Origin: Actinomycetes bacterium
GTDB lineage: Bacteria; Actinomycetota; Thermoleophilia; Gaiellales; Gaiellaceae
Direction of reading: 5' to 3'
DNA: 33,178 nucleotides
NCBI GenBank assembly: GCA_023251945.1
Contig: JAHEXT010000007.1
Location: 1 to 33,178, forward strand
Below are positions 7,194 to 20,476 of the stretch, one piece after another. Each line of letters begins with the position of its first letter. Position 1 is the stretch's first letter. The position numbers and the translations under genes were made by a program. A model generated the notes under the pieces. It saw only the letters and a list, made by a program, of their open reading frames with translations. It was not told the origin of the DNA and ran no database searches.

Positions 7194-8138
7194 TCATGCC
7201 GAACGAGGCTCCCCGACACCCGCGGTTCGGGCAGCGCGGTACCAGGCGACGGTTCGCTCGATTCCCTCGCGGAGCGGCGTCCACGCTTCGAAGCCGAAGA
7301 GCTCGCGTGCTCGGCTCGTGTCGAGGCTCCGTCGCGGCTGTCCTCCGGGCTTCGTCGTGTCCCAGACGATCCGGCCGCGGAAGTCGGTCACGTCCGCGAC
7401 CAGTCCGGCGAGCTCGCTGATCGAGATCTCCTTCTCGGCGCCGAGGTTCACCGGCTCCGGGCCGTCGTAGCGTTCGGCCGCGAGGACCAGCCCTTCGACG
7501 CAGTCCTCGACGAAGAGAAACTCGCGAGTGGGCGAGCCGTCGCCCCAAAGAACCACGTCCTCGCCGCGCTCGTCCGTTTCGATCATCTTGCGGATCAGGT
7601 GCGCGATGACATGGCCCGTCTCGAGGTCGAAGTTATCCCTCGGGCCGTAGAGGTTCGCCGGAAGCAGGAAGATCGCGTTCAGCCCGTACTGCTCCCGGTA
7701 GGCTTGCGCTCCCACGAGAACGGCCTTCTTGGCCACGCCGTAGGGGGCGTTCGTCTCCTCCGGGTAGCCGCTCCAGAGGTCCTCCTCCCGGAAGGGAACG
7801 GGCGTGAGCTTGGGATAGGCGCAGACGGTGCCGGCGATGACGAGCTTCGGCGTCTTGTGGATTCTCGCCTGTTCGAGCACGTGCGCTCCCATCGCCAGGT
7901 TCGCGTACCAGTAGCGACCGGGGTTCGCGCGGTTGGCACCGATCCCGCCCACCTCTGCCGCGAGATGGAAGACGAGCTCTGCGTCGGCGTCCTCGAACAT
8001 CCGCGCGGTGTCGTCCAGGTGTGTGAGGTCGTAGTCGGCGCTGCGGGCGACGACGACGTCGTGCTCGTCGCGCTCGAGCCGTTCGACCAGATGCGAGCCG
8101 AGGAAACCTCCTCCGCCTGTGACGAGGACGCGCGTCAT
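7194..8138 (-). CDS. GDP-L-fucose synthase-like epimerase/reductase
   Basis: A 314-residue short-chain dehydrogenase/reductase of the GDP-fucose synthase group, which epimerises GDP-4-keto-6-deoxymannose at C3 and C5 and reduces it with NADPH. Visible features are the nucleotide site [11 protein letters not shown] (6-16), the group-specific [10 protein letters not shown] (64-73), Cys106 in TVCAYPK, the YGVAK motif (Tyr133, Lys137), and His176 in ETGHVIAH. These correspond to the catalytic Cys, Tyr, Lys and His of the family. Its length is normal (about 310-320). It follows the 4,6-dehydratase gene on the same strand, giving the two-step route from GDP-mannose to GDP-L-fucose or a related 6-deoxy sugar. 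The gap upstream is 109 bp and contains part of repeat copy A. The family is well supported; the exact product is inferred. Confidence 0.88.
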
Positions 8139-8172
8139 GCGCCCCTCGCTGCGAACCTCTCCTGCTTCTGGC

Positions 8173-8315
8173 GCGACGCTGGCAAAGGAGGACGCCGGTT
8201 CGGAGCGCAGGACAGTACCTCGAGTACGGCCAAGCGACGAACCGGCGTCATCCTGCCGCCCAGGGTCGTGAGTCCGGCGCAGCCGGGCTGTGCTCGGCGG
8301 GAGCCGGACGGCCAG
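8173..8315 (+). repeat. Structured repeat copy A: putative pseudoknotted RNA element of unknown family
   Basis: 143 nt that align along their whole length with 12481-12625. Identical blocks are AAAGGAG (8184-8190), GCGCAGGACAGTAC (8205-8218) and CATCCTGCCGC (8249-8259); GTACGG-CAAGCG (8224-8236) differs at one base. Predicted stems on the plus strand: outer stem 8173-8183/8258-8269 (one bulge, one mismatch); a perfect 12-bp stem 8191-8202/8238-8249; a pseudoknot GCAGGA 8207-8212 with TCCTGC 8251-8256; a GTAC hairpin 8215-8218/8224-8227 with a 5-nt loop; and a final hairpin GTCCGGC 8272-8278/8303-8309 enclosing CCGGGC 8283-8288/GCTCGG 8292-8297. A G-U pair (8286-8294) favours the plus strand as the RNA strand. 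Its 3' half overlaps the end of the dehydratase gene on the other strand. The repeat is seen directly; an RNA function is inferred. Confidence 0.75.
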
Positions 8316-9447
8316 AAACGGGAGAGCCGGTGGGCAGCCAGTCGACGCGGCCTATCCAGCGCTCGCGTGTCTCGGCGTACCAGCGGATCGTCTGCAGGAC
8401 GCCTTCCTCCCAGGAGACCCTCGGCTGCCAGCCCGTCTCTCTTGTGAGCTTCTCATGGCCCACGCGGAGCGCGAGCACGTCGCTCGCACCGGGCCGCGAG
8501 CGAGTGGCCACGGACACGACTCGCCGGTCGTCGGGCCAGAAGCCGTGCTCCTCACCGATCCGGAGGATCAGCTCCGCCCAGTCCCGCACGGAGATGTTCT
8601 CGCCACGGCCGTACACGTACACGTCGCCTGCGATGCCCTGAGCCGCGACGGTGAGGTGGCCTCGGACACCGTCCGTGCAGTAGCAGAAGTCGCGCATCGG
8701 GTCGAGGTTCCCAAGCTCGACCGACTCTCGCACGAGGGCCTGCGTGACGATCGTCCCCGTCACGTAGCGTGGATTTTGGCGTGGCCCGTAGTTGTTGAAC
8801 ATCCTCGTGACGACTCCCGGCACGCCGAAGGCGTCGTAGTAGTTCATCGTCAGGAAGTCGGCCGCCACCTTCGACGTGGCGTAGATCGACTTCGGATTGA
8901 TCGGCGAGCGCTCGTGGAGGATCACTCCGCCTGAATCGTCGAAGTCGTGCTGGTCCGCAAGTGCCTCGTGCACGTTCCCGTACTCCTCGGACGTGCCCGC
9001 GGTGTCGAACTTCTCGACGTCGAGCTCCCAGTCGACGATCGCCTGGAGCAGGTTGAGCGTGCCCAGCACGTTCGCCGCGACCGTCTCATACGGCCGGTGC
9101 CAGGACTCGCCGACGTGCGCCTGCGCCCCGAGGTGGAACACGTACGGACGATCTGGCGCCTGGCGGAGCTCGCGCACGAGGTAGTCCACAGAGGTGCGGT
9201 CGGTGAGATCGGCAAAGTGCACCTTCAGGCGATCCCGGAGGTGGGAGATGTTGGTGAGCGCGCCGCTCGAGGTCGCACGGACGAAGGCGTGGACGGTTGC
9301 GCCGAGCTCGACGAGGGCGTCCGTAAGGTGCGAGCCCATGAACCCGTCCGCGCCGGTGACGAGCACCGTGCGTCCGTCGTAGACGTCGCCGAACTCCCGG
9401 CGGAGATCGTCGAGCGTGCCGCCTGTCCAGAGGCTGTCGTTCGGCAT
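8248..9447 (-). CDS. NDP-sugar 4,6-dehydratase, probably GDP-mannose 4,6-dehydratase type
   Basis: A 399-residue extended SDR enzyme. NAD site [10 protein letters not shown] is at 31-40, the active-site Thr-Ser-Glu in TAGTSEEYG (T152, E154) matches the GDP-mannose dehydratase pattern rather than the Asp-Glu of dTDP-glucose enzymes, and the YATSK motif gives Tyr189 and Lys193. [14 protein letters not shown] (218-231) and [10 protein letters not shown] (245-254) are substrate-domain landmarks; the latter also occurs in other NDP-sugar dehydratases, so the nucleotide is not certain. It would feed the epimerase/reductase 7194-8138. The frame stays open far upstream, but homology starts at ATG 9447, which also leaves 21 bp to the divergent flippase gene. 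The last 22 codons or so (8251-8315) lie inside repeat copy A and look like a foreign tail added beyond the normal domain end near residue 375. Confidence 0.85.
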
Positions 9448-9468
9448 GGTGCGTACGCTTCCGCGTCG

Positions 9469-10962
9469 GTGAGCAAGCGTACAGACTCGCCCGGCTTGGG
9501 CTCGCTCGCGAGCGGCGCGCTCACTGCGGCCTCGATGCTCGTCGTGACGGTCTTTGCCGCCGCCGTCGGCGTCGTCATCGCCCGCGAGTTCGGCCGCAGC
9601 GAGGAGACCGACGGCTTCTTCACCTCGTACGGCGTCTTCATCGTGATCGCCCTCGCAGCGCAGGCGATTCGGATTGCACTTCTCCCGGCACTCGCCCGCG
9701 CTCGGGACGAGGGCAGGCTCGCCGGAGAGATCGCCGGGTACGCGATCGCCCTGGCCGCGGTCGCCGTCCCGCTCGTGGTGCTCGTCGAGCTCGCGGCCGA
9801 CGAGATCGCCGGCGTGCTCACCGGGGACGGATCGGCGGTTGCGCAGGATGCGAGCGCCGAGGCTCTCCGCTGGATGGTCCCTGCCGCGGCTGCCTACCTG
9901 TTCGCTGGGCTCGCCGCGAGTGGCCTCGCTGCCCTCGACGACTACGCCACCGCTGCGCTGGGTTACGCGGTGGGCAGCGCTGTGGGTCTCCTCTTCATTC
10001 TCGCGCGAGTCGAGCCGGACGGGATCATCGCCGTGGCCTGGGGGATGGCGCTCAATGCCACCGTCGCCGTCGCGATTCCCGCCGCCGGCCTCGTCTTCCG
10101 AGCCGCTCGAGAGCGAATGCCTGCCGTCGCGGTGCGTCCGAGCGGGCCTCCGCTGAAGGAGCGGTTGGCCAGGTTCGCGGCAGCCGCTGCCCTGCCGATT
10201 GCGCTGCAGATGCTCTACGTCGTGTGTCTGCCGTTCGCCGGGCGGCTCGGGACCGGTGCGGTGACGAGCTTCGGATACGCCTACCTCGCGGCGGCGAGCC
10301 TTGTCACGGTCACCGCGTTCTCCCTCGGCCTCGTGACCTCGGTGCCGCTGACGCGCGCCGGTCTCGGGCCGGCGCGCGCGGCCCTGCACGTCGTGTCTGC
10401 CTCCTGGATCGCGCTCGCGCTCATCGGCGCCGCGGCAGGAGTCTTCGCGCTGGCCGGCGGTGACGTGATCGAGGCGGTTCTCGGAGACGCCTACGGCGGC
10501 GGTGTGGGGGAGGAGGTCGGGCGGCTCGTCGTCGTCCTGAGCCCGTGGATGATCGCGTCGGTTGGGGTGAACGTCGCGTTCCCGCTCGCCTTCGTCGACG
10601 GCCGGACGCGCGCGCTCCCGTGGATCGCTGCCCTCGCTCTCGCTTTCCAGGTGCCGCTCGCGTGGTCTGCGGCGGAGCTGCTCGAGCTCGACGGCCTGGC
10701 GCTTGCGCTCGCGGTGACCACGTTCCTCGTCCTCGGCGCGCTCCTCCGCGAGCTCGGCGCGCTCGTCGATGCAACCCGCGGCCTCGCGACGGCCGCCGCC
10801 GTCGTTGCCGCGATCACTGTCGGCGCCTTTCTCCCGCCCGCGCTCGTCCTCGGATCGGCAGCGGCTGCGCTGGCCGGACTCGGGCTCTACGCGGTGCTCG
10901 TGGGCGCGCTTCGGCCCGCCGGGCTCAGGGTGTCCTGGGGCTACCTGCGGGCTCTTCGCTGA
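9469..10962 (+). CDS. Wzx/MurJ-like lipid-linked oligosaccharide flippase
   Basis: A 497-residue polytopic membrane protein with about 12-14 hydrophobic segments spread over its length, of the MOP/MVF flippase type. The first segment contains SMLVVTVFAAAVGVVIAREF, followed by GRSEETDGFFTSYGVF, a stretch resembling the conserved start of MurJ and Wzx proteins (short basic/acidic loop, then DGFF). Members move undecaprenyl-linked glycans across the membrane. Given the locus, it more likely serves the surface polysaccharide than lipid II, but sequence alone does not decide this. The GTG at 9469 is chosen because upstream codons overlap the divergent dehydratase start; only 21 bp separate the two starts. 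Its last 38 bp overlap the convergent GT4 gene. Confidence 0.8.
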   Translation: MSKRTDSPGLGSLASGALTAASMLVVTVFAAAVGVVIAREFGRSEETDGFFTSYGVFIVIALAAQAIRIALLPALARARDEGRLAGEIAGYAIALAAVAVPLVVLVELAADEIAGVLTGDGSAVAQDASAEALRWMVPAAAAYLFAGLAASGLAALDDYATAALGYAVGSAVGLLFILARVEPDGIIAVAWGMALNATVAVAIPAAGLVFRAARERMPAVAVRPSGPPLKERLARFAAAAALPIALQMLYVVCLPFAGRLGTGAVTSFGYAYLAAASLVTVTAFSLGLVTSVPLTRAGLGPARAALHVVSASWIALALIGAAAGVFALAGGDVIEAVLGDAYGGGVGEEVGRLVVVLSPWMIASVGVNVAFPLAFVDGRTRALPWIAALALAFQVPLAWSAAELLELDGLALALAVTTFLVLGALLRELGALVDATRGLATAAAVVAAITVGAFLPPALVLGSAAAALAGLGLYAVLVGALRPAGLRVSWGYLRALR

Positions 10963-12016
10963 CGGCCGCGGAGTAGACGGTCTCGTGCCTGCGAGCCGTC
11001 TCCTCCCACGTGAACTCGGCTGCACGCACGAGTCCTCGTCCACGGAGCTCGTCAATACGCTCGACCGACTCGAGGATGCCCGCCGCGATCGACTCCGCAT
11101 CCGACGGGTCGAACAGGATGGCCGCATCGCCGCACACCTCCGGGATCGCGCCCGCGCGAGCCGCGGCGACTGGGCAGCCTGACGCCATCGCCTCGAGCGG
11201 CGGCAGCCCGAATCCCTCGTAGAGGCTCGGAAAGACGAGGCAGGCCGCGCGTCGATAGAGCGAGGCGAGCTCCTGAGTGGGCACCACACCAAGCCGCTCC
11301 ACTCCGTCCGGGAGCGGGTCGAGCCGCTCGAGCCCACCTCCTGTGAGGACGAGGCGTAGCTGCGGCCTTGTCTGCCGAAGCGACGCGAAAGCCTCGAAGA
11401 GCCGGACGTGGTTCTTGTGCGGCCAGGGACGCGCCGGATAGAGGAGGAACGGCTCGCGTTCCTCCGCGCCCGGGCGGAAGACCGCGTGGTCGATCGCGAG
11501 CGGGATCACGTGCACTCGCGTGGGATCGAGCCCGAGCAACTCGAGCACGCGATGTCGAACGAACTCGCTCGGCACGATCACCGCCGTGGCCGCGCGCGCG
11601 GCGCGGTCGTAGGCGATCCGGCGGAACGACCGACGCGCCGGACCGAAGAAGTCGGGGTGGTCACGGTGCTGGATGTCGTGAAGCGTGACCACCGTCGACG
11701 TCTTCACCTGAGGGACCGGCACTGTGAGCGCGTAGTGGACGACATCCAGAGTCTCGAGTCCCGACTGGAGCTCGCGCGAGCGGAGCGCCGAGACCGCCAT
11801 CGACGGGATTCGCGATGGGCCCCGACGCCCGACGGGGGGCTCGCGAACCTCGATTGCCGGGAGGCCGCCCGCGGCATCTCTCGCTCGCGCGGGAACGAAG
11901 ACCGTGTAGTCGAGGGTTCCCACGCCGGCAAGTGCCCGAACGAGCTCGCGGGCGTACGTCTCGGCGCCGCCGAGGTCGCCCGGGGCGAGCGTGAGCAGAG
12001 AGATCCCGACGCGCAC
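10925..12016 (-). CDS. GT4 family glycosyltransferase
   Basis: A 363-residue GT-B retaining glycosyltransferase. The N-terminal domain begins VRVGISLLTLAPGDLGGAET with the glycine-rich acceptor loop at 13-20. The linker shows VVTLHDIQHRDHPDFFGP (109-126). The C-terminal donor domain has RPWPHKNH (196-203) and the E-x7-E motif in LYEGFGLPPLEAMASG (E267, E275). A longer frame exists upstream, but the GTG at 12016 aligns with the usual start of the fold and lies 8 nt after a TAGGAT element. Related GT4 proteins here are 16979, 18498 and 19463. It is transcribed divergently from the small gene at 12062. The donor and linkage are unknown. Confidence 0.88.
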   Translation of the reverse strand: MRVGISLLTLAPGDLGGAETYARELVRALAGVGTLDYTVFVPARARDAAGGLPAIEVREPPVGRRGPSRIPSMAVSALRSRELQSGLETLDVVHYALTVPVPQVKTSTVVTLHDIQHRDHPDFFGPARRSFRRIAYDRAARAATAVIVPSEFVRHRVLELLGLDPTRVHVIPLAIDHAVFRPGAEEREPFLLYPARPWPHKNHVRLFEAFASLRQTRPQLRLVLTGGGLERLDPLPDGVERLGVVPTQELASLYRRAACLVFPSLYEGFGLPPLEAMASGCPVAAARAGAIPEVCGDAAILFDPSDAESIAAGILESVERIDELRGRGLVRAAEFTWEETARRHETVYSAAVSEEPAGSPRTP

Positions 12017-12024
12017 CGGAGTCG

Positions 12025-12030
12025 ATCCTA
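12025..12030 (-). promoter_or_regulatory. -10 element (TAGGAT on the minus strand) for the GT4 gene ending at 10925
   Basis: Read on the minus strand, TAGGAT is followed by 8 nt and then the GTG start at 12016, so the transcript would be leaderless or nearly so. The opposing -10 for the gene at 12062 is only 20 bp away, making this 45-bp gap a back-to-back promoter. Confidence 0.45.
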
Positions 12031-12049
12031 TTCGTGTAGGTGCCCCGGC

Positions 12050-12055
12050 TAGAAT
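12050..12055 (+). promoter_or_regulatory. -10 element of a leaderless promoter (TAGAAT) for the coiled-coil protein gene
   Basis: TAGAAT is followed by exactly 6 nt (GCCGCG) and the ATG at 12062. This is the standard geometry of actinobacterial leaderless promoters, with transcription starting at the A of ATG. No good -35 hexamer is visible 16-18 bp upstream. Confidence 0.55.
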
Positions 12056-12061
12056 GCCGCG

Positions 12062-12460
12062 ATGCCCTCTGATGGAGCCGAAAATGAGCAATCTGCAGGG
12101 GTTTCCGTCGATGTCGAGGAGCTCTTCCAGCGCCTGAAGGACGAGGTCCGCCGCTCCGGCTCGGACCCTGGCGCGGCGCCTGGAAGCGGCGACGAGCGCC
12201 GCGCGGCGCGCGCCGAAGCGGAGCGGCTCTGGCCGGTCTCGGCGGACCGGGCGTTACGGCTGCGGCCCGGCGTCCGGGGCGGTCTCGCGACACCGGTGAA
12301 GGCTGTCCTCCGGAAGCTCATGCGCTGGTACGTCGAGCCGCTCGCCTACGACCAGCGCTCGTTCAACGCCGCCGCGCTCCGCCTGCTCGACGACCTCCAG
12401 GAGCAGGTCGACCGCCTCGAGGCCGAGGTCGAGGCGCTCCGCGCCGATCGTCGGGCATGA
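12062..12460 (+). CDS. Small conserved-looking coiled-coil protein of unknown function
   Basis: A 132-residue soluble protein with no signal peptide or membrane segment. The middle has RKLMRWYVEPLAYDQRSFNA (about 83-102), a segment I associate with N-terminal regions of actinobacterial methyltransferases and glycosyltransferases in exopolysaccharide loci (from memory, not checked). The C-terminus (about 103-128) is a heptad-like helix with DDLQEQVDRLEAEVEALRAD, predicting a coiled coil. The rest is rich in Ala, Arg and Glu and probably flexible. It may be a scaffold or a free-standing version of that N-terminal region; a specific role cannot be given. It has its own leaderless promoter and is followed after 20 bp by repeat copy B. 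Confidence 0.72.
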   Translation: MPSDGAENEQSAGVSVDVEELFQRLKDEVRRSGSDPGAAPGSGDERRAARAEAERLWPVSADRALRLRPGVRGGLATPVKAVLRKLMRWYVEPLAYDQRSFNAAALRLLDDLQEQVDRLEAEVEALRADRRA

Positions 12461-12480
12461 CCCTCCCTCGCGTTCCTGGG

Positions 12481-12625
12481 GCGTCGCTCGCAAAGGAGGC
12501 GAGCGCGAGGCGCGCAGGACAGTACATGAGGTACGGACAAGCGCCGCGCGCGACGCATCCTGCCGCGAGCGGCGTCAGCCTCCGGCGGAGCCGGGCTTTG
12601 CCCGGCGGGAGCCGGAGGCGGCCAG
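12481..12625 (+). repeat. Structured repeat copy B: putative pseudoknotted RNA element, next to the glycosyltransferase operon
   Basis: 145 nt homologous to 8173-8315. Identical blocks include AAAGGAG (12492-12498), GCGCAGGACAGTAC (12512-12525) and CATCCTGCCGC (12556-12566). Predicted plus-strand structure: outer 11-bp stem 12481-12491/12565-12575 (two G-U pairs); an interrupted stem 12499-12513/12541-12556 whose sequence differs almost completely from copy A yet still pairs; a pseudoknot GCAGGA 12514-12519 with TCCTGC 12558-12563; a GTAC hairpin 12522-12525/12531-12534; and a 9-bp hairpin 12578-12586/12611-12619 enclosing CCGGGC-TTT-GCCCGG (12591-12605). It ends 10 bp before the ATG of the GT4 gene at 12636, so it would form the leader if transcribed with the operon. 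No gene is visible between 12461 and 12635. Confidence 0.75.
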
Positions 12626-12635
12626 GGATGCGGGC

Positions 12636-13661
12636 ATGAGGATTGCTGTATGTCGGCCCCAAGTGCCGTTCGTTCGGGGCGGGGCCGAGATCTTCACCGA
12701 CACGCTCGTCGAGGAGCTCCGCGGCCGCGGGCACGAGGCCGACCTCGTCTCTGTGCCGTTCAAGTGGTACCCCGGAGCACGGGTGCTGACGCAGGCCTTC
12801 CTCTGGCGCATGCTCGACCTGGAGGAAGCGGACGGGAGGCGGATCGATCTCGTCGTGGCGACCAAGTTCCCCTCGTATCTCGTCCGCCACCCGGACAAGC
12901 GGGTCTGGCTGGTTCATCAGTTCCGCCAGGCGTACGAGCTCGACGGCACCGAGCTCGGCCAGTTCGGTGAGTCCTCGGAGGAGCGAGCCCTGCGCCGGAA
13001 GGTGCAGGCGCTCGACCGAATAGCGCTCGGGGAGGCGACGGCTCTCTTCGCCATCTCCCGCAACGTCGCCGACCGGCTCGAGCGCTCGACCGGTCTCCGG
13101 GCCGAGGTGCTGACGCACCCGCCACAGGAGCTCGACTTCCGGTGTGATGGATACGGCGACTTCGTGCTCTCCGTCAACCGGCTCGACCGCGCCAAGCGCA
13201 TCGACCTCCTGCTCGAGGCGGCGGCGCTCGACTCCTCCCTCGAGGTCGTGATCGCCGGGGATGGGCCGGACCGTGAGCGGCTCGAGAGGCTGGCCCGCGA
13301 CCGCGGGCTGGATGGTCGAGCACGCTTCGCGGGACGCGTCTCCGAGCAGGAGCTCGCGGAGCTCTACGGGCGCTGCCTCGCCGTCTACTACGCCCCTCTC
13401 GACGAGGACTTCGGCATGGTGCCGTTCGAGGCGTTCCTCTCGGAGAAGCCGGTGCTCACGACGACGGACGCGGGAGGCCCGCTCGAGGTCGTCGCCGACG
13501 GCAGAACCGGCCTCGTCGTGTCGCCCGACGCCGCCGAGCTTGCGCGAGCCGCGGGCTGGCTGAGGGAACATCGCGACGAGGCGGCGTCCTTCGGGCGTGC
13601 CGGAAAGGCGATCGCGGCCGAGGTGACCTGGGACCGGGCGATCTCGAGGCTGCTCACATGA
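12636..13661 (+). CDS. GT4 family glycosyltransferase, first gene of the nine-gene operon
   Basis: A 341-residue GT-B enzyme. The acceptor domain starts MRIAVCRPQVPFVRGGAE, with the glycine loop at 13-18 (VRGGAE). The donor domain opens with FVLSVNRLDRAKRIDLLLEA (176-195). GDGPDRERLE is at 208-217. The E-x7-E pair is E257 and E265 in DEDFGMVPFEAF, followed by SEKPVLTTTDAGGPLEVV, a tail typical of this GT4 branch. The ATG at 12636 has a weak AGGG about 9 nt upstream and lies just after repeat copy B. Its stop overlaps the next start (ATGA, 13658-13661). The sugar is unknown. Confidence 0.9.
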   Translation: MRIAVCRPQVPFVRGGAEIFTDTLVEELRGRGHEADLVSVPFKWYPGARVLTQAFLWRMLDLEEADGRRIDLVVATKFPSYLVRHPDKRVWLVHQFRQAYELDGTELGQFGESSEERALRRKVQALDRIALGEATALFAISRNVADRLERSTGLRAEVLTHPPQELDFRCDGYGDFVLSVNRLDRAKRIDLLLEAAALDSSLEVVIAGDGPDRERLERLARDRGLDGRARFAGRVSEQELAELYGRCLAVYYAPLDEDFGMVPFEAFLSEKPVLTTTDAGGPLEVVADGRTGLVVSPDAAELARAAGWLREHRDEAASFGRAGKAIAAEVTWDRAISRLLT

Positions 13662-16982: not shown

Positions 16983-18088
16983 CGCGTCCTCGCGGTTCCG
17001 AGGCGGCCAGTGCCGTGAGGATCGCCTTCGACGTCTCCCCGCTCTCGCATCCGCTGCTCGGGATCGGGAACTACATCCGCGGCTCGCTCGCAGGCCTGGT
17101 GGAGGCGTCTGCGGGACAGCACGAGATCGTCGCGTTCGCGCCGACGAGCATCCTCGGCCCGGACCGGATCCGAGGTGCACTGAAAGGGATCGACGTCGAG
17201 TTGCGCACGTGGCGCCTCCCGTACTCGCATGCGGTGCGCACGGCATGGAGCACCCTGGGTCATCCCGCCGCCGAGCGTCTGCTCGGCCCGCTCGACGTGC
17301 TCCACTTCTCGGACTGGATGTACCCGCCACAACGGGCCGGCGTACGGGCGACGACGATCCATGATCTCGTCCCGCTACACCACCCGGAGTGGACGACGGC
17401 CAGGACGCGCTCGATGCACACGCGCAAGTACCGCAACACCGCGCGAACGTGCGACGTCGTCTTCGTGAACTCGGACTACACAGGCCGGGACGTGACCGAG
17501 ACGCTCGGCATCCCGCCCGACCGTGTGCGAGTCGCCCATCCCGCCGTGAAGGAGGCATTCCGAGCGGACGGCCCGGCGGCGGACCTCGGAGCACCCTACG
17601 TCCTCACCGTTGCGACGCTCGAGCCGCGCAAGAACCTGCAGACCCTGGTCGAGGCGCACCGTCTGCTGACCGGCGACCTGCAGCTTGCCGTCGTCGGCTC
17701 GGAGGGCTGGGGAGAGCAGCCTCTGCTCGACGACCCACGGATCCACCGCCTCGGCTACGTGTCGGACGCGGAGCTAGCGCGCCTCTACCGTGGCGCCGCT
17801 GTTGCCGTCTACCCCTCGCGCTACGAGGGATTCGGGATTCCGGTGATCGAGGCGATGGCATGCGGCGTGCCGGTGGTTGCGTCCGCGCATCCCTCCCTCG
17901 ACGAGGCATGCGGCGACGCGGCCGTACGCGCCGATCCCGACGACCCGGCGGCCATCGCGGCAGCGATCGAGAGCGCGCTCGTGGATCGCGACCGCCTCGC
18001 CGCTGCCGGCCGCGAGCATGCGAAGCGGTTCACCTGGCGTGCGGTGGGGGAGACGTTCCTGCGCGGGTACGAGGAGGCGACACGGTGA
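16979..18088 (+). CDS. GT4 family glycosyltransferase
   Basis: A 369-residue GT-B enzyme. VRIAFDVSPLSHPLLGIGNY (13-32) is the N-terminal strand and acceptor loop. TTIHDLVPLHHPEW (125-138) ends the first domain. VATLEPRKNL (211-220) provides the Arg-Lys pair that contacts the donor phosphate. The E-x7-E motif is E283/E291 in RYEGFGIPVIEAMACG. It closely resembles 18498-19466 and, less so, 19463-20476, suggesting tandem duplication. The ATG at 16979 overlaps the previous stop (ATGA), and its own stop overlaps the Nudix gene start (GTGA at 18085). It probably adds a mannose- or rhamnose-type residue, but the sequence does not fix the sugar. Confidence 0.9.
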   Translation: MTRPRGSEAASAVRIAFDVSPLSHPLLGIGNYIRGSLAGLVEASAGQHEIVAFAPTSILGPDRIRGALKGIDVELRTWRLPYSHAVRTAWSTLGHPAAERLLGPLDVLHFSDWMYPPQRAGVRATTIHDLVPLHHPEWTTARTRSMHTRKYRNTARTCDVVFVNSDYTGRDVTETLGIPPDRVRVAHPAVKEAFRADGPAADLGAPYVLTVATLEPRKNLQTLVEAHRLLTGDLQLAVVGSEGWGEQPLLDDPRIHRLGYVSDAELARLYRGAAVAVYPSRYEGFGIPVIEAMACGVPVVASAHPSLDEACGDAAVRADPDDPAAIAAAIESALVDRDRLAAAGREHAKRFTWRAVGETFLRGYEEATR

Positions 18089-18501: not shown

Positions 18502-19466
18502 GAGTTGGGGTGGACACCTCGCCGTTGATCAAGACGCGGGCCGGCACTGCGCGCCATGTCCGTGGGCTCGTCGGTGCCTTGCGAGGCCGCCCCGGTGTCG
18601 AGCTCGAGCTCCTCTCCTTCGGCGGTACCGGCCGCGTTTCGAGCGTCGCCCGCGACGCCCTCTGGTACCCGATCGGACTCCCGCGACGGGCGCGGGACCT
18701 CGAGCTCCTCCACTGCACGACGTTCCGCGGCCCGGCACGGGCGCGCGTCGCGACCGTCCTCACCGTGCACGACCTCGCCCTCCTGCGGACGCCCGAGGCC
18801 TTTCCGCGCTGGCACCGGCTGTACGGACGGGCAGGGCTCCGCAAGGTTCTCCACGCAGCAGATGCGGTCGTGGCCGTCTCGGAGTTCACGAGGGAGGAGC
18901 TCGTCGCGCTCGCCCAGGTCCCGGGGGAGCGCATCAGGGTCGTCCCGAACGGCGTCGACGCGGTGTTCACCCCGCAGGGCCCTGCCATGGAGGGGAACTA
19001 CGTCCTCGCGGTAGCGACGCTCGAGCCGCGCAAGAACCTCGCGCGGGCGGTCGAGGGGGCGCGTCTCGCCGGCGTCGAGCTTCGCGTCGTCGGTGCTCAC
19101 GGATGGGGCGGCGTCGAGGTTCCCGGGTGGGTGGGCGAGGTGCCCGACGCCGAGCTCGCGGCCCTCTACCGGGGGGCTCGGTGCCTCCTCTACCCGTCGT
19201 TGTACGAAGGCTTCGGGATCCCCGTCCTCGAGGCGATGGCGTGCGGCACTCCTGTGGTCACGTCCCGCGGAACGGCGATGGAGGAGGTCGCGGGCGGAGC
19301 GGCGGTTCTCGTGGACCCGCTCGACGAGGCGTCGATCGCGGCCGGCCTTGCCGAGGCGGACGCCCGGCGCCACGAGCTCATGGAGCTCGGTCTGGCCCAC
19401 GCGCGCCCGTTCACGTGGGAGCGCGCGGCCGACGGGGTGGAGGCGTTGTGGAGAGAGCTCGGGTGA
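18498..19466 (+). CDS. GT4 family glycosyltransferase
   Basis: A 322-residue, compact GT-B enzyme starting VRVGVDTSPLIKTRAGTARH. VLTVHDLALLRTPEAFPRWH (87-106) and VSEFTREELV (127-136) belong to the acceptor domain. VVPNGVDAVF (148-157) is the hinge, followed by VATLEPRKNL (172-181), and the E-x7-E motif is E237/E245 in LYEGFGIPVLEAMACG. It shares long stretches of pattern with 16979-18088 and 19463-20476, so the three look like duplicated copies that diverged in acceptor domains. It starts at GTG 18498 overlapping the Nudix stop and ends overlapping the next GTG (19463-19466). Confidence 0.9.
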   Translation: MRVGVDTSPLIKTRAGTARHVRGLVGALRGRPGVELELLSFGGTGRVSSVARDALWYPIGLPRRARDLELLHCTTFRGPARARVATVLTVHDLALLRTPEAFPRWHRLYGRAGLRKVLHAADAVVAVSEFTREELVALAQVPGERIRVVPNGVDAVFTPQGPAMEGNYVLAVATLEPRKNLARAVEGARLAGVELRVVGAHGWGGVEVPGWVGEVPDAELAALYRGARCLLYPSLYEGFGIPVLEAMACGTPVVTSRGTAMEEVAGGAAVLVDPLDEASIAAGLAEADARRHELMELGLAHARPFTWERAADGVEALWRELG

Positions 19467-20476
19467 GACTCGTCGTCGTCGACGCGGATGTATTGGGGCG
19501 TCATCGGACGGGCGACGAGACGTACGTGCGCAACCTCCTCCGCGAGTTACCGCCCCTCGCCGAGCCGGCTGGGGTCCACATCGCCGCCGTCACTCGCCGG
19601 CCCGATCTCGTTCCCGACGGTGTCGAGCCGGTGGAGCTCAGCGTGCGCTCGCAGGAGCTGCGGATGGCGCTCTCGCTTCCACGCACGCTTCGGCGCGTCG
19701 GCGCCGCGCTCTGCCACACGCAGTACGCTCTCCCGGTCCGGGCGCCGTGCCCGTGCGTCGTCACGGTGCACGATCTCTCGTTCGAGCGTGAGCCGAAGCT
19801 CATGGGGCTCAAGGACAGGTTGATCTTTCGCACGGTTGTCCCACGAGCGGTGCGGCGGGCGGCGCGCGTCCTGACCGTCTCCGAGCGGACGAAGCGTGAC
19901 CTCGTCGAGCTCTACGGCGTTCCACCGGAGCGCATCGTCGTCACGCCGAACGGCGTCGACCCGGCTTTCTCCCCCGGCGACGGCTCACGCGATTACGTCC
20001 TCGCAGTGGGGGCGATCCAGCGCCGGAAGAACCAGCTCACCGCACTCGAGGCGGCGTCGGCGGTCGGTCTGCCGCTCGTCGTGGCCGGGCCCGAGAAGGA
20101 GCCCGCGCTGGCCGAGGAGTTACGGGCGCGCGGCGCACGGCTCGAGGGACACGTGGAGACCGAGCGGCTCGCGGAGCTCTACCGGGGTGCAGCCTGCCTC
20201 GTGCAGGCATCGCGCTACGAAGGGTTCGGTCTTCCCGTGCTCGAGGCGATGGCGTGCGGGACACCGGTCGTCGCTGTCCGGGAGCCAGCGCTCGAGGAGG
20301 TCGCGGGCGACGCTGCGGTCTTCGTCGAGGAAGCGGGCCTCGCGGACGGGATCCGGCGGGCGCTCGACGAGCGCGACCGGCTCGTGGCTGCGGGTCTGGA
20401 GCGCGCGCTTCGTTTCAGCTGGCGCACCGCCGCCGAGCGGACGCTTGCCGTCTACCGGGACATACTCGAGGCGTGA
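19463..20476 (+). CDS. GT4 family glycosyltransferase
   Basis: A 337-residue GT-B enzyme. VRLVVVDADVLGRHRTGDET (1-20) contains an acceptor loop lacking the usual double glycine. VVTVHDLSFEREP (99-111) is conserved. VTPNGVDPAF (160-169) is the hinge, and the donor-binding stretch reads VGAIQRRKNQ (182-191), where the Glu-Pro of its two relatives has become Gln-Arg. E-x7-E is E253/E261 in RYEGFGLPVLEAMACG. It is the third of three similar GT4 genes in this operon. GTG 19463 overlaps the previous stop, and its stop overlaps the next start (GTGA at 20473). Confidence 0.9.
   Translation: MRLVVVDADVLGRHRTGDETYVRNLLRELPPLAEPAGVHIAAVTRRPDLVPDGVEPVELSVRSQELRMALSLPRTLRRVGAALCHTQYALPVRAPCPCVVTVHDLSFEREPKLMGLKDRLIFRTVVPRAVRRAARVLTVSERTKRDLVELYGVPPERIVVTPNGVDPAFSPGDGSRDYVLAVGAIQRRKNQLTALEAASAVGLPLVVAGPEKEPALAEELRARGARLEGHVETERLAELYRGAACLVQASRYEGFGLPVLEAMACGTPVVAVREPALEEVAGDAAVFVEEAGLADGIRRALDERDRLVAAGLERALRFSWRTAAERTLAVYRDILEA

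Follow-up and report, generated by a model that had tools for sequence, protein, structure and literature searches.

The closest described counterparts of the element studied here are mobile palindromes of three kinds. RPEs (Rickettsia palindromic elements) are palindromic sequences of about 150 bp that insert in genes and are translated in frame (PMC10969869; PMC3733652). REPs, which carry an unpaired GTAG or CGTC tag, are described in PMC3733652 as 20–40 bp long and intergenic; they lie between tandem or convergent genes and supply stop codons to their neighbours with their termini. Actinobacteria do not occur in the text of that paper. Among MITEs, QMITE2 of Coxiella has direct repeats of 7–9 bp, as given in PMC10969869.

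The window, i.e., the whole stretch of 33,178 nucleotides analysed (contig JAHEXT010000007.1), contains two copies, A and B, of a palindromic element. The window comes from a member of the Gaiellaceae, a family of soil bacteria. The element works like known mobile palindromes, yet the full set of features of any known kind was not found in it. As in RPEs, in-frame insertion in protein genes occurs (the C-terminal extension made by copy A; recG of genome G023). Unlike RPEs, the element has an unrelated host and apparently an unrelated sequence, most copies lie exactly at gene ends, and a long hairpin with a conserved internal loop stands beside the palindrome. The second hairpin, located after GCGTCAG, is REP-like, and the taste for gene ends is shared with REPs. 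However, in contrast to REPs and REPINs, the element measures about 158 nt and has both a closing stem and a core of 100 nt, and no association with RAYT was seen among 10 Y1 loci; the inner GCGTCAG contains CGTC, but in most copies read it does not form a stand-alone tagged REP. Like the MITEs QMITE2 and ERIC, it is short and non-coding, with terminal inverted repeats and a location at the 3′ ends of ORFs; it is multi-copy and without a transposase gene of its own, with conserved inner arms of 8 bp and six copy-specific outer positions. Unlike in MITEs, these outer six bases change with the target, the element is very G+C-rich, and no parent transposon was found among RVT_1 and Y1 loci.

The element occurs in many copies, with covarying stems and in both orientations relative to genes; sister genomes have empty sites in its place, and direct repeats of 8–9 nt flank some copies. 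Judging from the copy number, the even orientation, the empty sites and the direct repeats, copies A and B are very probably two insertions of one non-autonomous mobile palindrome of about 158 nt, of the MITE/REP kind, and not a conserved leader.

Copies A and B and their empty sites

The features of copy A and the dehydratase gene (positions in the window) are as follows:

8248–9447, minus strand: gene of an SDR sugar-nucleotide dehydratase (PF16363 GDP_Man_Dehyd); element DNA makes up its last 23 codons and its stop
8251–8319, minus strand: element-encoded C-terminal codons, 23 residues
8248–8250, minus strand: stop codon TGA of the dehydratase, falling within a conserved motif of the copy A core, CATCCTGC
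8164–8319, plus strand: copy A body, inner terminal arms GCTTCTGG / CCAGAAAC included
8157–8163, plus strand: copy A outer 5′ arm CTCTCCT, complementing 8320–8326 with one T.G pair
8320–8326, plus strand: copy A outer 3′ arm GGGAGAG, lying within the dehydratase frame (TGSP)
8172–8272, plus strand: copy A core, match to covariance model R1 with 81.2 bits
8273–8311, plus strand: copy A second hairpin, REP-like, GGCGCAGCCGGGC...GCTCGGCGGGAGCC
8135–8155, minus strand: putative displaced native tail of the dehydratase
7194–8138, minus strand: downstream gene, GDP-L-fucose synthase-like (272.7 bits, below the cut-off of 500)

The sequence-only reading had assigned the C-terminal codons and stop of the dehydratase gene to a repeat, and this stands: the minus-strand frame enters the repeat and terminates there, the proline codon at 8320–8322 being the last before the element codons. 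The count is corrected from about 22 residues to 23 codons plus TGA. The frame does run past the dehydratase fold, though family matches stop at residue 351 (PF16363) to 368 (NCBIfam models, all under cut-off), not near residue 375 as had been supposed. The bounds first given for the repeat, 8248–8315 and 12565–12625, were too narrow: A and B align over about 156–158 nt (about 8164–8319 and 12472–12629), both on the plus strand, with paired arms just outside. The insertion of copy A in the last dehydratase codons took the native stop out of frame, and the element supplies 23 codons and TGA. This explains the odd end of the dehydratase protein as the product of a recent insertion. Past copy A lies TTCGCAGCGAGGGGCGCATGA (8155–8135), and TGSP joined to it would read FAARGA before a stop, resembling the PLAAR and PLAAQ ends of sister proteins. 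The native tail thus appears to be displaced, not lost, a survival which the earlier reading overlooked.

Seven same-genus dehydratase orthologues have no element after the gene and end in DW(L/M)PTG(T/A)PLxxx before the stop: TGTPLAAR (G001), TGTPLATK (G003), TGAPLAAQ (G005), TGTPLGVNP (G006), TGAPLTTT (G007), TGTPLTTP (G008) and TGTPLTRT (G010). The 23-residue tail is present in none of them. In G001, G003, G005, G007 and G008, the dehydratase stop abuts the following start codon or overlaps it; G006 has about 70 nt between the dehydratase and the following start, and in G010 another sequence comes next. A more distant homologue (74%) in G004 is also without the element and has a different, longer tail.

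Copy B is located at a stop/start overlap, with the following features:

12472–12629, plus strand: copy B body
12480–12578, plus strand: copy B core, R1 match with 114.2 bits
12466–12471, plus strand: copy B outer 5′ arm CCTCGC, in imperfect pairing with GCGGGC at 12630–12635
12452–12460, plus strand: left direct repeat CGGGCATGA, containing the stop codon of the upstream ORF (12062–12460)
12631–12639, plus strand: right direct repeat CGGGCATGA, within which the downstream glycosyltransferase starts (codon at 12636)
12636–13661, plus strand: glycosyltransferase (PF00534) 3′ of copy B

The 9-nt direct repeats bracketing copy B are intact, which suggests that this copy is young. Its outer arm forms four Watson–Crick pairs and one T.G pair with the flank, out of six positions. 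The site is empty in five sisters (G001, G005, G006, G008 and G009), where the overlap is unbroken and the upstream stop lies inside the NTGA that starts the glycosyltransferase; other short spacers are found in G003 and G007, and G004 has diverged. In the search for further empty sites, the flanks of 7 of 18 copies were submitted, and clean ones at stop/start overlaps were obtained for three more copies, L004 (three sisters), L008 (four) and L069 (four). Two further sisters carry a different spacer at the L004 site. Copy L011 is absent from three sisters, and G003 retains a 3′ remnant only. The empty sites and the orthologue tails, both proposed earlier as checks, support the claim of a mobile or copied element over that of a conserved leader of one gene class.

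Architecture and distribution of the element family

The alignment of the core comprised 37 copies and 104 columns and yielded a structure of 33 pairs, from which model R1 was made. In this alignment, 91.3% of cells are paired, 21 of the 33 pairs show changes on both sides, and 45 further pair types occur. Cells with both-side changes numbered 104 versus 31 expected, and none of 500 shuffles reached any of five measures. Moving the partners by 1–3 columns brought core pairing down to 23–41%; this control is biased towards the structure, which was drawn from the same sequences. RNAalifold independently gave a similar helix order with 26 pairs. The fold z-scores of the plus strand are −5.68 for A and −5.84 for B, with none of 200 shuffles equally stable. 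On the minus strand they are −4.07 and −5.98; being a palindrome, the element folds well on this strand too.

From the outside inwards, the element consists of outer arms (about 6 bp), inner arms (8 bp), the core helix, the joint GCGTCAG, the second hairpin and the 3′ arms. The inner arms are commonly GTTCCTGG/CCAGGGAC, with a T.G pair. The core is a long irregular hairpin with the conserved internal loop RGGACA-GURC-NNNN(N)-GYAC-GGNCAAG, and the second hairpin features GGAGCC...GGGAGC. The arms of the latter pair at 6.15 of 7 positions versus 3.84 with partners swapped (maximum 4.33, n = 48), and genomes that lack the core can have this hairpin by itself. A second type of core, about 80 nt long, has the joint, hairpin and terminal stem in common with the first. 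The model of this type, R2, built from eight sequences, matches 32 of 299 genomes of the class, all of them Gaiellaceae, including one copy in the own genome (G000:C58:5944-6022). The second type was seen at L174:2669-2747 and 9931-10010, at L179:3092-3173 and in L041, L045, L046, L047 and L054.

The sequence-only reading knew two copies of the repeat. The own genome, a draft of 1.28 Mb in 73 contigs and 63.2% complete, has 36 matches at E ≤ 1, of which 13 are long copies (about 156–160 nt) with E ≤ 3e-20. With the covariance model, 13 strong matches were obtained, plus another with E 0.97. The copies C61 and C73 are 96% identical. Of 61 relatives, the own genome included, 30 have a match at E ≤ 0.001, and the R1 core is present in 38 of 103 Gaiellaceae genomes (E ≤ 0.01). 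At E ≤ 0.001, R1 is positive in 33 of the 299 class genomes, 30 of them Gaiellaceae; the three outside the family are weak (best E 1.1e-7). The complete genome G007 has no match to either model.

In several own-genome copies (L002, L003, L005, L007, L017), another palindrome, CCCCAGAAAGTGC...GCACTTTCTGGGG, replaces or interrupts the ends. Tandem or partly duplicated copies were also seen (L158:2572-2671 and 2708-2807, L071, L139), e.g., two consecutive ones at a secA stop codon. The window further contains three direct repeats of 65–74% identity (17773–17934, 19154–19315 and 20167–20328) inside long ORFs, probably tandem paralogous genes.

No Rfam family matched at gathering score across the window, and at E up to 5 there were only two sub-threshold matches in 8100–12700. 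A tRNA search found nothing, nor did searches of phages with copy B and of plasmids with copy A. A search of PMC Open Access papers with a non-exhaustive set of synonyms turned up no description of such an element for Gaiella, Gaiellales or Thermoleophilia.

Placement relative to genes and the outer arm

Out of 96 copies, 91 were examined for orientation, with gene direction taken from a codon score trained on ten ORFs of the window, not from a gene finder. Both neighbours were called for 52 copies: 23 are sense-tandem, 24 antisense-tandem, 5 convergent and none divergent. The earlier argument from orientation, copy A being antisense and copy B sense, therefore generalises. The neighbour genes are unrelated (rpmB, secA, pdhA/pdhB, yebC, tRNA genes and others, named by eye from translations except for recG). 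Most right-hand genes entering the 3′ end (22 of 33 called) have their stop between −5 and +3 relative to the outer arm; 4 stop earlier and 7 later. Five of these seven read on clearly (L143, L127, L147, L152 and L013), copy A being among the clear cases, while two (L066, L134) depend on misplaced arms. Among 25 left-hand genes, 23 stop before they reach the outer arm; the other 2, one of them recG of G023, run through the element. In tandem-sense copies, a start codon is often within the 3′ arm. In G023, an 827-aa RecG frame (NF008168, 763 bits, cut-off 718) reads straight through a copy at L148:4065-4164 (G023:C1:33764-33863), in frame between ...VEQRRALALA and PHVLHMTATPIPRTL. The five clear cases and recG indicate that gene ends made by the element are recurrent and not peculiar to copy A.

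In genus g11, copies are found beside tRNA genes (L061–L063, L140, L144, L150, L154, L160, L166, L167, L172, L174 and L177), and several touch the tRNA 3′ end. At a tRNA-Leu site common to four genomes of this genus, the second hairpin has matched changes. These would fit selection in place, and so count against the mobile reading, if the copies were one old insertion; the tRNA copies and the secA copies within one genus are putative orthologues.

The six outermost bases of the 5′ arm are copy-specific, and their pairing partners lie in the 3′ flank. These bases pair at 4.63 of 6 positions versus 3.22 with partners swapped (maximum 3.65 in 1000, n = 94), and the observed score is lowered by 3′ arms that the arm finder misplaced in some of the 94 copies (lengths far from 113–175, and some wrong inside this range, such as L134, L066, L125 and L009). 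Past position six, pairing in the terminal stem drops to 0.5 and below (n = 94). Of 72 better-placed copies, 51 have Watson–Crick pairs at five or six of the six outer positions. In the cases checked, the 3′ flank consists of native gene sequence, as shown by the sigma-factor genes of sisters, which have the same CTCAG end without the element. Identity of the outer 5′ arm tracks the 3′ flank (r 0.70) and not the body (r 0.16; 72 copies, 1609 pairs), hence inheritance of the arm from a parent copy was rejected. Some inheritance is nevertheless favoured by the imperfect arm of copy B and by the common arms of near-identical copies (L130/L137), which speak against a strict copying rule. Candidate origins of the outer arm are extension by fold-back, correction of the palindrome once it has inserted, and a choice of targets that pair with the arm.

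Direct repeats of at least 8 nt flank 5 of 63 copies, versus 0.59 expected, a few copies having repeats of 8–11 nt. Most of the 63, copy A included, have no clear direct repeat, and strict target duplication is not supported as a general feature. Wobble pairs are lopsided, with 61 T.G/G.T versus 2 C.A/A.C in the inner terminal stem and, mildly, 31 versus 12 in the core. This points to the plus strand as the folded one and does not tell RNA from single-stranded DNA.

Explanations of the element and their meaning

It is most improbable that the element is a cis-regulatory structured RNA that leads surface-polysaccharide genes in the manner of a riboswitch, in which case copy B would be at its functional site and copy A would have strayed. 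The covariation of the core on the plus strand, the wobble bias towards that strand and the frequent start codon in the 3′ arm would suit a leader, but the near-equal numbers of sense and antisense copies leave no fixed orientation upstream of one gene class, the neighbouring genes are unrelated, and Rfam offers no family at gathering score. Retrotransposition of a structured RNA is also improbable, if less so. It would proceed by target-primed reverse transcription; the end of the cDNA would fold back onto its own beginning and copy 6–10 nt of the target, leaving an arm complementary to the 3′ flank. The favoured plus-strand fold, the correlation of the outer arm with the flank instead of the body and the direct repeats of 8–11 nt are consistent with it; on the other hand, RVT_1 is found in only 2 of 103 Gaiellaceae genomes, neither copy-rich, and the outer arm of the young copy B is not an exact complement of its flank.

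We consider it unlikely, though less so than either of these, that the element is of the REP/RAYT type and moved on single-stranded DNA by a Y1 (IS200-like) transposase, its arm pairing being the pairing of guide to cleavage site. Y1_Tnp is present in 70 of the 103 family genomes, the second hairpin occurs without the core, and the folded plus strand is favoured. The placement is also REP-like, downstream of genes and between tandem or convergent ones, and according to PMC3733652 the GTAG ends of REPs often supply a TAG stop to neighbours. Against this route, three assemblies have no Y1 match, namely the own genome (63% complete), G016 with 9 copies of the element and G020 with 7, and in two of three Y1 loci inspected (L315 and L316, not L323) the Y1 gene lies between inverted repeats GGGGTCAGGTCTTC that bear no relation to the element. 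Copy B, moreover, has a 9-nt target duplication. To our knowledge, such a duplication is not expected of the Y1 single-strand mechanism. Among the RVT_1 and Y1 loci covered, no transposase or other helper was tied to the element, and no autonomous transposon sharing its ends was found: R1 had no match in 12 RT and Y1 loci, no REP-like hairpin was present in 13, and the 10 Y1 loci examined had no flanking copies of either. Among 96 copies read, none has an ORF between core and hairpin.

For the mobile palindrome that we prefer, the following course may be suggested. An enzyme working on the folded plus strand would move the element. Insertions would survive where harm is small and would accumulate at gene ends; the neatest sites would be stop/start overlaps (NTGA), where target duplication would leave both genes whole. 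The outer 5′ arm probably derives from the target and was formed as the element inserted or afterwards, e.g., by fold-back extension or later palindrome correction.

A wider proposal is put forward tentatively, and we regard it as doubtful: the element may represent a previously unnamed superfamily of the Gaiellaceae (core types I and II), in which the target completes the terminal stem, the 5′ arm acquiring, or being chosen for, complementarity of at least six bases to the 3′ flank, so that the stem is closed across each junction. If this is true and the arm is a guide, an element without its own protein would choose its target by base pairing; if the arm is copied, it would be the record of a fold-back step in an undescribed insertion route. 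With an alignable family, empty sites and target-complementary arms, the movement of helper-less palindromes becomes directly testable. Since C-termini made by the element recur (five clear cases and the in-frame recG insert), protein tails in Gaiellaceae genomes that carry it are not to be taken as conserved domains.
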